Source of the DNA: Ktedonobacteria bacterium
GTDB lineage: Bacteria; Chloroflexota; Ktedonobacteria; Ktedonobacterales; JACDGC01
Reading direction: 5' to 3'
NCBI GenBank assembly: GCA_027459705.1
Contig: DAIDHM010000146.1
Coordinates: 1-58,409 of the forward strand
Length of the DNA stretch: 58,409 bases
Part shown: positions 29,800 through 35,829 of the stretch, one piece after another
How positions within the stretch are numbered: position 1 is the first letter of the stretch
Layout: every line of letters begins with the position of its first letter
The notes under the pieces: generated by a model
Told to the model about the DNA's origin: nothing
Databases searched by the model: none
What the model saw: the letters and a program-made list of their open reading frames with translations, nothing else
Translations under genes and position numbers: made by a program

Positions 29800-31758
29800 A
29801 TGCAGCAAGATCGACCGGGCGCGGGACGCAACCAATCGCGCGAAGTGAACGCCAATGCCGCGAGTGAAGTGGAACATCAGGCCGGCAAGCGTGAAGTCGA
29901 AATGTACGTCCGCACGTATCGTTCTCTCTTGCGCAGCTCGGGAGATGTAGGACTGAAAGCGCTGATCCAATCGCATTACAACATTGACTCCGCCCTGCAC
30001 CCCGATGCCAAATCCTCGGATCCGGATATGTCGGCGTTTATCTATAGCACACTGCGCTTGCCGCCAGAGATCTTGCGTTGCCATCGCATCTTGCTGGGGC
30101 AGTCTGATGAGGTCTTTCGCCAGCAAAATATCACCATCGACCAATGGCAGGCCGTGACGGCCTCCGCGCGCCGCCGCCGCTGGTATTATGATGGCAAGAA
30201 CACCCTGGCGGTCTTCATCGCCAGCGAGAGTGATATCGACGATATCGTGCCAACGCTCGTCGCCTTTCAGATTGAGTGGAATAAATTTCACTGGCTGCTG
30301 AACGTTGACCCAACCACGATGCAACTCTTGGAGAGCCGCGTCGATCATAACTCACCCGTCTTCGCTGAGATTACCAAGGTCGTACGCGAGCGGCTCCATG
30401 TCTCACTCGACGACTGGCGACGACTGGAATTGATGTGGGGCGATTTACTCTGGGCCAATCTGCTGATCATTGGCCGTGATCGCAAGAATTTGACGATGCG
30501 CATGGTCGGCGGATCCTATGTCGATTTCGCCCGAACCGCGCGGCGCTGGTGGGGGCCAATCGAGAAACTCATCGAAGACCTGCGGCTGGTCAATCGGCCG
30601 GTCTATTTTGTCTCGAGCAATATGCATAGCGTCGCCAATTTGATCAGCGGGATGGCTACCCGCCGCCAGGAGGAGATCACGCGTTTTGCCTTGAGCGGCG
30701 CCGACCCCTACCTGATGGAGGAGTGCCGTAAACTGAAAGAAGGCCATACCCAGGGAAACCTGCAAAATTTTCTCTACTATGCCGCCCGTGAATATATGCG
30801 AACCGCCGCCGGACGTGAATATGCCCGGGCGCGGCCTGTCGATGAACAGGAGCACGGCATCTGGCATGTCAGCGCGCGTCAGGGTATGGAACTGGATGCC
30901 CAGGTCATTGATGTTGGGAAGATCCGACCGGGGGATCTCGATGAACGCTGCCAGGTGGCTGGCTATGATCGCCTGCAAGAGTCACGCGCCATCATCCTGA
31001 ATATCGACTATCCGCTGGGCATTGCCGCCTACCGGGTATTACGCGAGATGTTGACGAATCTCACCGACGTCCGCGGGGTCTATATCTTGGGGAAGGCAGC
31101 CACCCTGAATGCGAGTATCGGCGATGTTATGATCTCAAATGTCATCTTCGACGAGCACTCCCAGAACGTCTTTTGGTTAGATAATTGTTTCAGCGCCGCG
31201 GACCTCAGCCGCTTTCTGGTCTATGGATCAGTATTGGATAACCAGCGCGCGGTATCCAGCAAGGGCACGTACTTACAGAACCGTCAATATCTCGATTTTT
31301 ACTACAATTCTAACTATACGGTCATCGAGATGGAGGCTGGTCCTTATATGGAAGCGGTCTACGAGGACATTTATTCGACGCGCTATCCCATTGGCGAAAA
31401 CATCAATTTCGCCAAGATGCCCTTCGATGTGGGCATCCTCCATTATGCGTCAGATACGCCATACACCCGTGGTAAGAATCTTGGCGCGGGGAGCCTGTCA
31501 TATTATGGAATGGATAGCACCTACGCTGCCGCGATCGCCATCTTGCGGCGTATCCTGGATCGCGAGGTAGGGGCCGCCGCGCGTGGCGCGCTCGCTCAGC
31601 GCGCCACGGCCAACACCAGCGGATACCTCGATCCCACATCGCCTTCCGCCACGGGCGTCTTGCGCGCATCGCAGATCAGTAACCTTCCGGCATCTGCACC
31701 GACGCCGGGGATGCCGCCGCAACTCAATCTGCCGCAAGGCCCCAAGATGCCAAGTTGA
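29800..31758 (+). CDS. 652-aa protein with a nucleoside-phosphorylase-like C-terminal domain
   Basis: Function is unknown. Residues 1 to about 350 are mostly helical and charged, with many Trp and Arg and no known motif. Residues about 390-590 show features of the nucleoside phosphorylase (PNP/UDP) superfamily: GVYILGKAATLNASIGDVMISN (426-447), where a Gly-rich strand precedes the V-GD-I turn; VIEMEAGPYMEAVYE (508-522), matching the ribose-binding E-M-E motif; and HYASDTPYT (548-556), matching the base-binding SD motif. The last 60 residues are Pro/Ser-rich and probably disordered. GAGGGAG six bases upstream supports the start. It may belong to a conserved uncharacterised family (possibly DUF6909, from memory only). 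It stands alone. Confidence 0.85.
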   Translation: MQQDRPGAGRNQSREVNANAASEVEHQAGKREVEMYVRTYRSLLRSSGDVGLKALIQSHYNIDSALHPDAKSSDPDMSAFIYSTLRLPPEILRCHRILLGQSDEVFRQQNITIDQWQAVTASARRRRWYYDGKNTLAVFIASESDIDDIVPTLVAFQIEWNKFHWLLNVDPTTMQLLESRVDHNSPVFAEITKVVRERLHVSLDDWRRLELMWGDLLWANLLIIGRDRKNLTMRMVGGSYVDFARTARRWWGPIEKLIEDLRLVNRPVYFVSSNMHSVANLISGMATRRQEEITRFALSGADPYLMEECRKLKEGHTQGNLQNFLYYAAREYMRTAAGREYARARPVDEQEHGIWHVSARQGMELDAQVIDVGKIRPGDLDERCQVAGYDRLQESRAIILNIDYPLGIAAYRVLREMLTNLTDVRGVYILGKAATLNASIGDVMISNVIFDEHSQNVFWLDNCFSAADLSRFLVYGSVLDNQRAVSSKGTYLQNRQYLDFYYNSNYTVIEMEAGPYMEAVYEDIYSTRYPIGENINFAKMPFDVGILHYASDTPYTRGKNLGAGSLSYYGMDSTYAAAIAILRRILDREVGAAARGALAQRATANTSGYLDPTSPSATGVLRASQISNLPASAPTPGMPPQLNLPQGPKMPS

Positions 31759-31834: not shown

Positions 31835-34078
31835 TCAGGCAATCGGCGATGAGTCAAGCAAGTGGATATAGTCACCTGGCACCAGGTCTTCCCAGCGCTC
31901 GCCGGGAAGGAGATCCACTCCCACGTGCGTATACGCATCGGCGACAAAGACCGCGCAACTGAAGCGATTGGCGCTGGCATTGCCGAGACGCAGGCCAGGC
32001 AGAATGCGATCGAAGGCAATCAAAGCGAGACCACGTGTGTCGTATGGCTTGCCGATCTGGTCGCGCGCCCAGTCCGCGGCCGCGGTGCGCTGGGTGTCCG
32101 CGACCCGCGGCCGGATGCCCGTGACGCGCCGATTGCCGAGAAGATAGCGCCGCACGCCATGGGGCATCGCCTCGATGACCATGCCCTCGCCATCATAGAT
32201 CGCGACATGGTGGAAGTAGGAGAGCGTCGCAATCTCGATGATGCGAGCGCCCATGGTACCATCCGGCCCAAAGAGCACAATATCGCCACGTTGCAGCGGC
32301 TCCATGACTGCCACGGGCACCATCGCCATATTCATCGACGGATTCGTGGGTGGTGGCGTGGGGGTACGGGCGTCGTGCGGGCTAGTATGCCGCTCCAGGT
32401 GAGATGGGCGCTGGGTCAGGTGGAGCAAGACCCGTTGCGCGACCGCTAACAGGGAGATCAGCAGACTCAGCCAGGTTGCGCCGATCAGGAATCCCAGTGC
32501 GCGGCTCTCATGTTGGCGTTCGCGGTTCTCCGCGCTGGGTGGTTGGGTGCCGCCAAACCACGCGGCCAACGCGCCGAGACCTGCCAGCAACGCGCCGCGC
32601 CGCCAGGAAGGGCGTCGACTGGTCCAGATGCCCGCGGCGAGCACACCCGACGCCGCGACCGCGCGCATCGCGCGTGTTTCAGGCGTGGGGGCCTTGGGAA
32701 AGAAGGCTTGGATGCTACGCGCTACCCAGCGCGATCCCCCGGCCAGTGTGGTAGCGACCGCTTCCAGCGGTAAGCCCAGGCGTATGAACGCGGCGATCAA
32801 CGTCGCGAGCGTGCCCCGCCAGACCCAGCGATCGCGCAGCGGATGGTAAACCGCCGCCTTGGCTGGGCGCGCCGCATGCCAGAATGGCCACCAGCGCAGG
32901 CGATACGCCAAGAAGGTCAAGCCGCCGCTCACCACGGTCGCAATCCAGCTGAAGAGCGCTAACGTGCTCCACCGATGAGCAATCTCTTCTGGAGCATATG
33001 TATGATTGGGATCCTGCATATCCGCACTGGGCAGGATGGCGCGCCAGAGCCGCTGAATGGGAACTGCAGTCTGCTGGCGTTCCGCCTCTTCGACAGGTGG
33101 GGCCATCAATCGTAACGCGCCAGCCTTGATCGCGATATTGATGGGTGTGGTTCCTGCGGCTTCACCATCAATCGCGACCGGCATAGGCGGATAGACACGA
33201 ATCCGCACGGTACGCGCTTGCCGCAAGTGGGTATGCTGGTGCATTTCGCGTTGTCCAGTGGCAATTGCCCAATAATGGAGGAGGAGATCGCGGCGGCGGC
33301 TATAGCGCATGGTCACGATATCCAGTCGACCATCACTGATTGATGCTTCCTTACCACTGCGGATGCCGAGCCCATAATAGGGCGTGTTGGAGATCGTGAT
33401 CTGGCGGATACGAACCTGCCGTTTTTTTCCGTCAATGGTCAAGGTGACCACCTGCGATTGCGAACGATTGATGAGTTGCATCGCACCGAAAAGGCCCTGA
33501 ATCAGACCACGAACTCCATGGTGGCGCATTGCTTCCCCAAGGGGAAAAAGCGGGGCTTCAAGTCCAACGCTGACGGCTTCCATGAAAGGGTGGCCATTCG
33601 CAATGCCCACATCAATCTGGCGTGGCTTGCCATGCGTCAAGACCTGAATGGCCGCGAAGGGATCCGCGGGGATGCCAACGCTGAGCGCGACGTTATTCAT
33701 GGTCCCCAGCGGCAGAATGCCGAGAATCACCTCACTGCCTACCAACCCGGCCGCGACCTCATGAATGGTGCCATCGCCGCCCGCCGCGACAACCATGGTG
33801 ACTCCATCATGCACCGCCTGGTGCGCGATGCCATGCCCATGATCCTGCTCGGTCGTCGGAATGACCTCTACCTGATATCCGACTTCTTCAAGTTCGTGGG
33901 TGGCCGCCGTCACGATGTCGTCAGAGCCATGTCCTTGAAAGGCCATTGGATTGATGATCAATCTGACCAGACGCGCGGTGGTCGGCTGGTCCACGGTGGT
34001 CGGCACCTTTGCGACCAATGGCGCGCCTGGTTCCGGGTCTCCCGGTTGACGGACTTGTGTAGATCGTGCGTCGCTCAT
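31835..34078 (-). CDS. Fusion of a diacylglycerol-kinase-like domain, membrane region and permuted papain-fold domain
   Basis: Residues about 36-330 are a YegS/DgkB-type lipid kinase domain: INPMAFQG nucleotide loop, GGDGT at 100-104, PLGTMNNVA (123-131), SDGRLDIV and a closing VAIDGE. Residues about 375-400, 420-445, 475-490, 495-510 and 525-550 are hydrophobic, giving a membrane region. After a Pro-rich linker, residues 590-747 match the YiiX/NlpC-P60 permuted papain fold: RGDIVLF, catalytic-type His624 in FHHVAIYDG, Glu636 in VIEAMPHGV, GKPYDTRGL, and Cys708 in FSCAVFVADAY. Both catalytic halves look intact. GGAGGG seven bases upstream sets the start. It lies 54 bases downstream of a histidine kinase gene on the same strand. 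Substrates are unknown. Confidence 0.9.
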   Translation of the reverse strand: MSDARSTQVRQPGDPEPGAPLVAKVPTTVDQPTTARLVRLIINPMAFQGHGSDDIVTAATHELEEVGYQVEVIPTTEQDHGHGIAHQAVHDGVTMVVAAGGDGTIHEVAAGLVGSEVILGILPLGTMNNVALSVGIPADPFAAIQVLTHGKPRQIDVGIANGHPFMEAVSVGLEAPLFPLGEAMRHHGVRGLIQGLFGAMQLINRSQSQVVTLTIDGKKRQVRIRQITISNTPYYGLGIRSGKEASISDGRLDIVTMRYSRRRDLLLHYWAIATGQREMHQHTHLRQARTVRIRVYPPMPVAIDGEAAGTTPINIAIKAGALRLMAPPVEEAERQQTAVPIQRLWRAILPSADMQDPNHTYAPEEIAHRWSTLALFSWIATVVSGGLTFLAYRLRWWPFWHAARPAKAAVYHPLRDRWVWRGTLATLIAAFIRLGLPLEAVATTLAGGSRWVARSIQAFFPKAPTPETRAMRAVAASGVLAAGIWTSRRPSWRRGALLAGLGALAAWFGGTQPPSAENRERQHESRALGFLIGATWLSLLISLLAVAQRVLLHLTQRPSHLERHTSPHDARTPTPPPTNPSMNMAMVPVAVMEPLQRGDIVLFGPDGTMGARIIEIATLSYFHHVAIYDGEGMVIEAMPHGVRRYLLGNRRVTGIRPRVADTQRTAAADWARDQIGKPYDTRGLALIAFDRILPGLRLGNASANRFSCAVFVADAYTHVGVDLLPGERWEDLVPGDYIHLLDSSPIA

Positions 34079-34132
34079 CTCGAAACCCTCCGGTATCTAG
34101 CAAAATATCTGGCGCCCTCCGCCCGGGCAGGC

Positions 34133-35719
34133 TCAACGAACGAGTGCGACGATTGGCGCTGTTACCCGTTCTGCGAGGGGTAAGGAGAACGTGAAGGTGG
34201 ATCCCTTCCCCAATTCGCTCTCTACCCAGATGCGACCACCGTGAGCACTGATAATTGCCTGGCAGATATAGAGCCCCAGGCCGGCTCCGGACGTTTGACG
34301 CGTGAGATCGCCATCCAGGCGGTGAAAGCGATCGAAGATCTCCGTTTGAGCGCGATAAGGGATACCAGGCCCCTCATCACTGATCTTCACCTGCACCTCA
34401 TCACGGGTTGCTTGTGTGGAGACGGTGATCCGGGTTCCTGATGGGGCATATTTGATGGCATTGTCGAGCAGATTCATGACCACTTCTTCAATCCGGGTTA
34501 CATCCGCGAAGACCGTTGGCAGAGGCTCTGGCTGATCCAGAATCAACGTATGCCTAACGCCGCGGACGCGCGCCCGTCGCACGCAGACAGCCAGCATCTC
34601 TTCGATATCCAGCGGGGCGGGCGACATCGACAATCCTCCCGCCTGGATACGCGATGCATACAGCAAATTGCCGACCATATGACTCAAGCGATCAGCTTCA
34701 TCCTCGATGGCATGCAGGCGATCGCGCAGAGCATCGCCCGTCCAGTGCGCATCTGGTCGACTCAACGTCGAGGCATAGCCTTTGATAATGGCGATAGGTG
34801 TCTGAAGTTCATGCGAGACCACCGAGACAATCGTTGAGCTGATATTCTCGAACGCGTGGTTATTACTCATATCTCGCACATTCATAATGCCGCTGATCGG
34901 GGTTCCTTCGGGGGTTCGCGCCACTCCCGTAGTGACCGCGACGGCGATCGGCTCACCATCGCGCGCGTGGATGATGATCTCGCGCGCCACGACTGGCTGC
35001 TTGGTTGCGAAGGCTTCGACGAGGGGGCAGTCCTCGAGATGCAAAGGCGTACCATCGGTGGTCGCGGGGCGCAAGACCTCGGAGTAATAGCGTCCATTCA
35101 TGCCCCGCGCATCCATCCCCAGCATGCGCGCCAGGGCAGGGTTGCAGCCGGTGATGCGTAATTGAGGGTCGACGGTGAGGATGCCATCGCCACTGAACGT
35201 AAAGACGGCTTCCAATTGATCGCGTTGCTCGATGAGGATGCGCGCATCCAACAACGAGCGGAGATGCGCACTGATCTGCCCGACATAGGCGGTGCGCGTG
35301 CGAGGTTGTGCCAGGGGTGCCCGTTGTGGCATGCCTGGCAGTCCAAGATAGACGATCCACCCTAAATGAATGATGGTGCGCCCTGCTCCGGTGGTTTGCA
35401 GACGTAGGGCGACGGCTTCGCCATCATTTGGCCCGCCCAGTCGCGCGACGGAAGACGGCCAGACCTCCGGGGCGATTGGGAATGCGGCGAAGTCGCCACG
35501 CAAGCGCAGATCCAGCATACCGCGCATCCACTGCAAAAATTTACGCGCCTCGGGTTGCGTCATCCCCCATCCTACGATGAGCCCGGCCGGTGCGCCTGGT
35601 TGCGGCACACAGTCCAACACACAGGCTTGCGCGTCCAACATCAAGGCGGTATTGCCCAGGAAGGTGTCAATCAGATCGGTGACGCCCAGCGCGAGATGGT
35701 GGGGGGGGAGCTCTGGCAT
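34133..35719 (-). CDS. PAS-domain sensor histidine kinase
   Basis: The 528-aa protein has a GAF-like N-terminal region (about 1-145), a PAS domain (about 165-285, FSGDGILTVDPQLRITGCN), a HisKA dimerisation domain with phospho-acceptor His303 in SHELQTP, and a HATPase domain with N box NLLDNAIKYAPSG, G1 DEGPGIP and G2 GAGLGLYI. No TM segment is present, so it senses in the cytoplasm or at the membrane surface. GAGGAAC seven bases upstream favours 35719 over the longer frame to 35824. No response regulator gene is adjacent. The lipid-kinase/papain fusion follows on the same transcript. Confidence 0.92.
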   Translation of the reverse strand: MPELPPHHLALGVTDLIDTFLGNTALMLDAQACVLDCVPQPGAPAGLIVGWGMTQPEARKFLQWMRGMLDLRLRGDFAAFPIAPEVWPSSVARLGGPNDGEAVALRLQTTGAGRTIIHLGWIVYLGLPGMPQRAPLAQPRTRTAYVGQISAHLRSLLDARILIEQRDQLEAVFTFSGDGILTVDPQLRITGCNPALARMLGMDARGMNGRYYSEVLRPATTDGTPLHLEDCPLVEAFATKQPVVAREIIIHARDGEPIAVAVTTGVARTPEGTPISGIMNVRDMSNNHAFENISSTIVSVVSHELQTPIAIIKGYASTLSRPDAHWTGDALRDRLHAIEDEADRLSHMVGNLLYASRIQAGGLSMSPAPLDIEEMLAVCVRRARVRGVRHTLILDQPEPLPTVFADVTRIEEVVMNLLDNAIKYAPSGTRITVSTQATRDEVQVKISDEGPGIPYRAQTEIFDRFHRLDGDLTRQTSGAGLGLYICQAIISAHGGRIWVESELGKGSTFTFSLPLAERVTAPIVALVR

Positions 35720-35829
35720 AGGCGATGTTCCTCGCGTCGACCAACGCAGTTGCTCAAGCCAGCAGGTGTTTTGGCCTGTTCTGTGTTCAGAGCCAGGCAA
35801 GCTGTCTTGCTTACCATTATCCATTCAAT

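Follow-up and report, generated by a model that had tools for sequence, protein, structure and literature searches.

The gene at positions 31835-34078 on the minus strand of the window, the whole 58,409-nt stretch of DNA analysed here, encodes a 747-aa protein (P0001) in which a lipid kinase (residues 36-330), six hydrophobic segments (residues 350-555) and a permuted NlpC/P60 domain (residues 590-742) follow one another in a single chain. With a probability of roughly 55%, this protein is read as a lipid kinase held at the membrane and coupled there with a cysteine enzyme that hydrolyses or transfers acyl groups, with an anchor derived from a PAP2 lipid phosphatase between the two enzymes. 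As judged by sequence comparison, the protein has three domains with intact catalytic residues at both ends, has lost the PAP2 active site in its middle part and descends from a kinase-PAP2 gene pair. The architecture of kinase, dead PAP2 and YiiX-type domain is genuine and conserved across a single bacterial family; as far as searched it is undescribed, while its parts are of known kinds. New here is the membrane region's assignment as a PAP2 domain with a lost active site. The original prediction had placed the open reading frame at exactly these positions, its strand being added here, and had proposed one enzyme that phosphorylates a lipid and acts on acyl chains; both domain assignments stood, and the double role is kept as the best reading of what such domains would do. 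The following features were located, all on the minus strand:

31835..34078, minus: whole fusion gene, 747 aa, with full-length relatives in the genomes G002, G003 and G004
34086..34091, minus: Shine-Dalgarno sequence GGAGGG, 7 nt 5′ of the ATG at 34078, read from the sequence
33605..33967, minus: DAGK_cat domain, residues 38-158 (Pfam PF00781, 98.2 bits, cut-off 23.6, E 3.4e-28)
33767..33781, minus: GGDGT motif at residues 100-104; in the alignment with DgkB, Asp102 falls on Asp68 (assuming a tag offset of 22)
33104..33574, minus: YegS_C accessory domain, residues 169-325 (Pfam PF19279, 71 bits, cut-off 27, E 1.2e-19)
32414..33031, minus: decayed PAP2 domain with six hydrophobic segments, residues 350-555, assigned by profiles, alignment and motif search
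32492..32518, minus: RQHESRALG, residues 521-529; RQxESxALG in 4/4 fusions at the former site of PAP2 motif C3
32312..32413, minus: Pro-rich linker, residues 556-589, seen in the sequence, aligning poorly among relatives and probably flexible
31853..32311, minus: permuted NlpC/P60 (YaeF/YiiX, Peptidase_C92-like) domain, residues 590-742, assigned by Pfam, profiles and alignment
32207..32209, minus: His624, predicted catalytic His, invariant in 12 aligned rows
32171..32173, minus: Glu636, predicted third triad residue; all four fusions have Glu here, whereas L011, a stand-alone relative, has Gln
32042..32044, minus: Tyr679, NlpC/P60 signature tyrosine, nearly invariant in 12 rows (PMC3142127)
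31955..31957, minus: Cys708, predicted catalytic Cys, invariant in 12 rows and located C-terminal of the His as in permuted members

The N-terminal domain can be assigned to the YegS/BmrU/DgkB-type lipid kinases and keeps the catalytic residues. A complete DAGK-type domain with GGDGT at residues 100-104 had been predicted, and both Pfam domains of such a kinase were recovered far above chance; the protein moreover reached 129.2 bits against TIGR00147 (YegS/Rv2252/BmrU lipid kinase family), for which the curated cut-off is 118.65. The best solved relative of the kinase is DgkB of S. aureus (PDB 2qv7, E 3.8e-18), and in this alignment Asp102, Asp156, Asp249, Asp304 and Glu306 (residues 304-306 being Asp-Gly-Glu) are identical to DgkB. 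With the offset of 22 they correspond to DgkB residues 68, 124, 216, 271 and 273, which we take to have catalytic roles. The full kinase fold and the catalytic residues are thus common to the fusion and the YegS/BmrU/DgkB kinases (TIGR00147; 2qv7), whereas the latter are stand-alone, soluble proteins and the window kinase shares its chain with a membrane region and another enzyme. In one genome of the same family, G001, a kinase alone is encoded (L008, 1489-2502, minus strand), which has 337 aa, stops at the linker and carries Ser-Gly-Tyr (ISGYHEG) in place of Asp-Gly-Glu. It may be a dead kinase, left as a remnant after the other domains were lost.

The membrane region, for which several transmembrane segments had been predicted, contains six hydrophobic segments; its PAP2 origin had been missed, and it is a decayed PAP2 domain and not a mere linker. 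Residues 350-555 align with the PAP2 domain of kinase-PAP2 proteins from a sister family, in which PAP2 is over the Pfam cut-off, and the fusion of G002 has six hydrophobic segments as have these intact kinase-PAP2 parents. A profile of the membrane regions of the four full-length fusions (A3) was run across 400 species genomes of the phylum and found matches outside the family only in G014 (E 3e-8) and G026 (E 7.7e-5), both being the PAP2 part of a kinase-PAP2 fusion. In the reverse direction a profile of intact PAP2 (A4) retrieved the G002 fusion (E 7.2e-5), and hhalign aligned the two profiles with 97% probability (E 2.9e-11). Scored singly, 23 of 24 PAP2 proteins reached 20-48, mostly over about 200 aligned columns, the 24th having been cut at a wrong PSGH; 33 other membrane ORFs did not exceed 11, and the reversed profile gave 9 at most. 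A PDB search with A3 gave no match. The three PAP2 motifs KxxxxxxRP, PSGH and SRxxxxxHxxxD were found in 23 of the 24 PAP2 sequences (all but the mis-cut one), with A or T also allowed in this set where the third motif begins with S, and none of the three was present in any of the four fusions. By these comparisons the region is a descendant of a PAP2 lipid phosphatase with all three catalytic motifs lost, and as such not a PAP2 phosphatase.

The C-terminal domain was weak in Pfam when the single protein was searched and firm when its family was used as a profile, so that the domain check suggested with the original prediction was clear-cut for the kinase and needed the family for this part. 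Peptidase_C92 matched the single protein with 21.8 bits (E 2.2e-4), under the cut-off of 27; in a genome scan with neighbours of the frame added it reached 27.5 bits, the relatives remaining below the cut-off. The YaeF model matched the single sequence with E 3.2e-7. The domains of four close relatives share 58-66% identity with that of the window protein, and hhalign of a five-row C-terminal alignment against C92 proteins of the phylum gave 98.3% (E 1.2e-14), compared with 0.1% for the reversed control. The wider C-terminal profile A7 consists of 12 rows. In the PDB it matched 3kw0 (BcPPNE) with E 2.4e-15 over profile positions 9-163 of 166, and 2if6 (YiiX) with E 8.5e-11 over positions 11-146; the narrower profile A2 retrieved nothing but noise there. 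Permuted structures were matched over most or all of the domain and canonical NlpC/P60 structures only partially, as circular permutation predicts. His624, Glu636 and Cys708 lie at the positions that had been claimed for them, and according to Xu et al. the active site of permuted NlpC/P60 proteins consists of the same four residues as His624, Glu636, Tyr679 and Cys708 (PMC3142127). The permuted order His-Glu-Tyr-Cys is common to the window domain and the YaeF/YiiX enzymes (Peptidase_C92; 2if6, 3kw0); YiiX and 3kw0 are stand-alone proteins, whereas the subgroup of the window protein is joined to a lipid kinase and, searched as a single protein, lies under the Pfam cut-off. Weak matches to an LRAT-type domain were seen in two relatives (E 0.09 and 0.28). 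The third catalytic residue of LRAT is His, whereas it is Glu here. AlphaFold models computed with two-row alignments had a mean pLDDT of 35.6 for the C-terminal domain and 37.6 for the whole protein. An 820-aa frame in G242 (L045) combines a C92/YiiX-like domain with an ICSELV motif and an apparent trypsin-like serine protease.

The fusion is present at full length in 4/6 genomes of the window's family f1 (G000, G002, G003 and G004); in G005 the contig ends after the first membrane segment, and G001 has the kinase alone. Outside f1 no kinase-YiiX fusion was seen among the 400 species genomes of the phylum, so that within the phylum the survey proposed with the original prediction found it in one family. 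The C-terminal profile A2 had matches in 13 of these 400 genomes, fused to a kinase in members of f1 only, and a scan for close relatives among 84,980 named species genomes returned contig JAJPKG010000175.1 of G002 as its sole match. No plasmid record covered 80% of the protein, the matches listed being kinase-only, and no relative of the C-terminal domain that would point to a viral origin was confirmed among 2.9 million viral contigs. No paper naming both YiiX and diacylglycerol kinase was found. Distant fusions may exist outside the phylum. Between the fusions the C-terminal domain is 62-80% identical without gaps, the kinase 40-72% and the membrane region 30-74%; conservation is thus highest in the C-terminal domain.

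Since the membrane region is a PAP2 domain without its active site, the protein descends from a kinase/phosphatase pair. In f2, a sister family of the same order, an intact PAP2 gene lies downstream of the best kinase relatives on the same strand in 14/14 cases, with 182-347 nt from hit to hit, and in the sister family f4 a kinase-PAP2 fusion with intact motifs occurs in three genomes. Sister-family fusions with intact PAP2 motifs were located in L024 (631-2568, minus strand), L025 (1429-3315, plus strand) and L030 (1235-3238, plus strand), that of L025 having Asp-Ala-Gln in place of the catalytic Asp-Gly-Glu. Kinase-PAP2 proteins, a kind named in Streptomyces albulus (PMC12016549) and to which L024, L025 and L030 belong, share the kinase clade of the window. 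The homologous six-helix region stands in these three loci in the same order as in the window fusion, and its PAP2 motifs are intact there, whereas in the window all three are lost and an NlpC/P60 domain is added behind. In the tree, the three arrangements have kinases that fall into a single clade (96/95); it is this clade that the tree fixes, not the order among the three. Because matches of A3 outside the family are limited to kinase-PAP2 fusions and an adjacent PAP2 gene is found in 14/14 cases, the pair was probably fused before the phosphatase died, with a YiiX-type enzyme being added. Adjacent genes or a two-domain fusion would have come first, and loss of the phosphatase site and gain of the YiiX-type domain would have followed in f1, in which case likely intermediates (adjacent genes, two-domain fusion) survive in the sister families. 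This would make the fusion a traceable case of two enzymes catalysing opposite reactions, of which one lost its activity and a different enzyme joined the other. A stand-alone relative of the C-terminal domain (L011, 189 aa, 62% identical) was found in G010, on another contig than the kinase and PAP2 genes of that genome.

According to the preferred reading, the YegS/DgkB-type domain would phosphorylate a membrane lipid at its hydroxyl, diacylglycerol being the likeliest substrate. Cys708, His624 and Glu636, together with Tyr679, would form a thioester with the acyl chain of a lipid or lipid-amide, as expected for the class, and the acyl chain might then be hydrolysed or handed on. The former PAP2 domain would anchor both enzymes at the membrane and possibly present the lipid to them. 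A six-helix region has both of its ends on one side of the membrane, necessarily the side of ATP, and both the kinase and the C-terminal enzyme would thus face the cytosol; counts of Lys and Arg do not favour this topology and fail in the same way for the intact kinase-PAP2 parents. In permuted NlpC/P60 enzymes the S1 pocket is hydrophobic, and that of YiiX holds a fatty acid (PMC3142127). LnsA, a permuted member, is needed for lipoprotein N-acylation and works with LnsB, a CPBP-like membrane protein without catalytic motifs (PMC7387801), and the phospholipase Tox-Act1 cleaves phosphatidylglycerol and phosphatidylethanolamine, its toxicity requiring its His and Cys (PMC12994826). Because the class is linked to acyl chains in these three studies, a lipid kinase joined to an acyl-handling enzyme is the best reading. 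LnsA/LnsB of S. aureus (PMC7387801) resemble the fusion in outline, since there too a permuted NlpC/P60 enzyme works with a membrane protein that has the look of an inactivated enzyme; they are two separate proteins with a CPBP-like partner, a predicted signal peptide on LnsA and no kinase, whereas the window protein is one chain with a kinase. A more specific version, in which the phosphatase turned into a non-catalytic, lipid-presenting scaffold, with RQxESxALG as its own conserved motif, that passes a shared lipid between the kinase and the YiiX-type acyltransferase or acyl hydrolase, is tentative and somewhat doubtful. Bacterial YaeF/YiiX enzymes are poorly understood (PMC7387801), and few of them or their substrates have been characterised; amidase activity has been proposed as well. 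That a lipid kinase is covalently attached, on a scaffold that was once a phosphatase, gives good, if circumstantial, grounds for holding that this YaeF/YiiX branch, at least, acts on membrane lipids, and the fusion is a defined protein for testing such action.

As the window belongs to a draft assembly with 245 contigs, the fusion might be regarded as an artefact of assembly or gene calling. This explanation is effectively refuted by the fusions of G002, G003 and G004, three other assemblies in which the same order of domains is encoded in a single open frame with 43-45% identity to the window protein, and by dN/dS values below 1 over all parts wherever computable, dS being near saturation for most pairs. 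It is also very unlikely that the PAP2-derived region is still enzymatic by means of moved or new residues such as RQxESxALG: this motif is kept in 4/4 fusions and occupies the former C3 site, and dN/dS is 0.19 for the two closest members, but all four fusions lack the catalytic His in C2 as well as in C3, and the region is the least conserved part among distant members (30-37%).

For the C-terminal domain, the role of an amidase or peptidase on a protein, lipo-amino acid or cell-wall peptide, sharing only the membrane location with the kinase, is possible and on balance rather unlikely. The closest solved relative, 3kw0, was deposited as a cysteine peptidase and holds lysine, cleavage of fatty-acid-amino-acid amides was proposed by Xu et al. 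for YiiX and BcPPNE (PMC3142127), and the stand-alone L011 is without evident lipid gene context. Permuted members, however, have a hydrophobic pocket and the characterised ones act on acyl groups (PMC3142127, PMC12994826); a role on peptidoglycan would moreover need an outside location, whereas the six-helix PAP2-type region keeps both ends on the side of the kinase, and the N-terminal sequence of L011, judged by eye, is unlike a signal peptide. That the domain is a regulator of the kinase, as a lipid sensor or a self-cleaving release module, and not a separate metabolic enzyme is improbable. The Pro-rich linker that separates it from the membrane region and its attachment to the kinase in every f1 genome with the whole gene readable, except G001, would fit such a role, but all four catalytic residues are kept in what is the most conserved part of the protein, and the stand-alone relative in G010 suggests a function without the kinase.

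The surroundings of the gene point to a protein that functions on its own. On the same strand, a PAS/HisKA/HATPase sensor histidine kinase gene (34133-35824, minus strand) stops 54 nt upstream of the start of the fusion gene and is possibly co-transcribed with it in this genome, and a DUF6909 gene of unknown function (29800-31758, plus strand; E 1.7e-231) converges downstream. Neither adjoins the fusion in G002, G003 or G004, and therefore the fusion protein probably works as a self-contained unit; the histidine kinase was for the same reason dropped as a functional partner. No conserved gene neighbour, as judged by ORF starts, was found in these three genomes, and the fusion had no PADLOC match to anti-phage defence systems. 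Elsewhere in the window, at 154-2067 on the minus strand, a pro-kumamolisin activation domain is encoded, the protease domain being absent from the Pfam matches of this frame.
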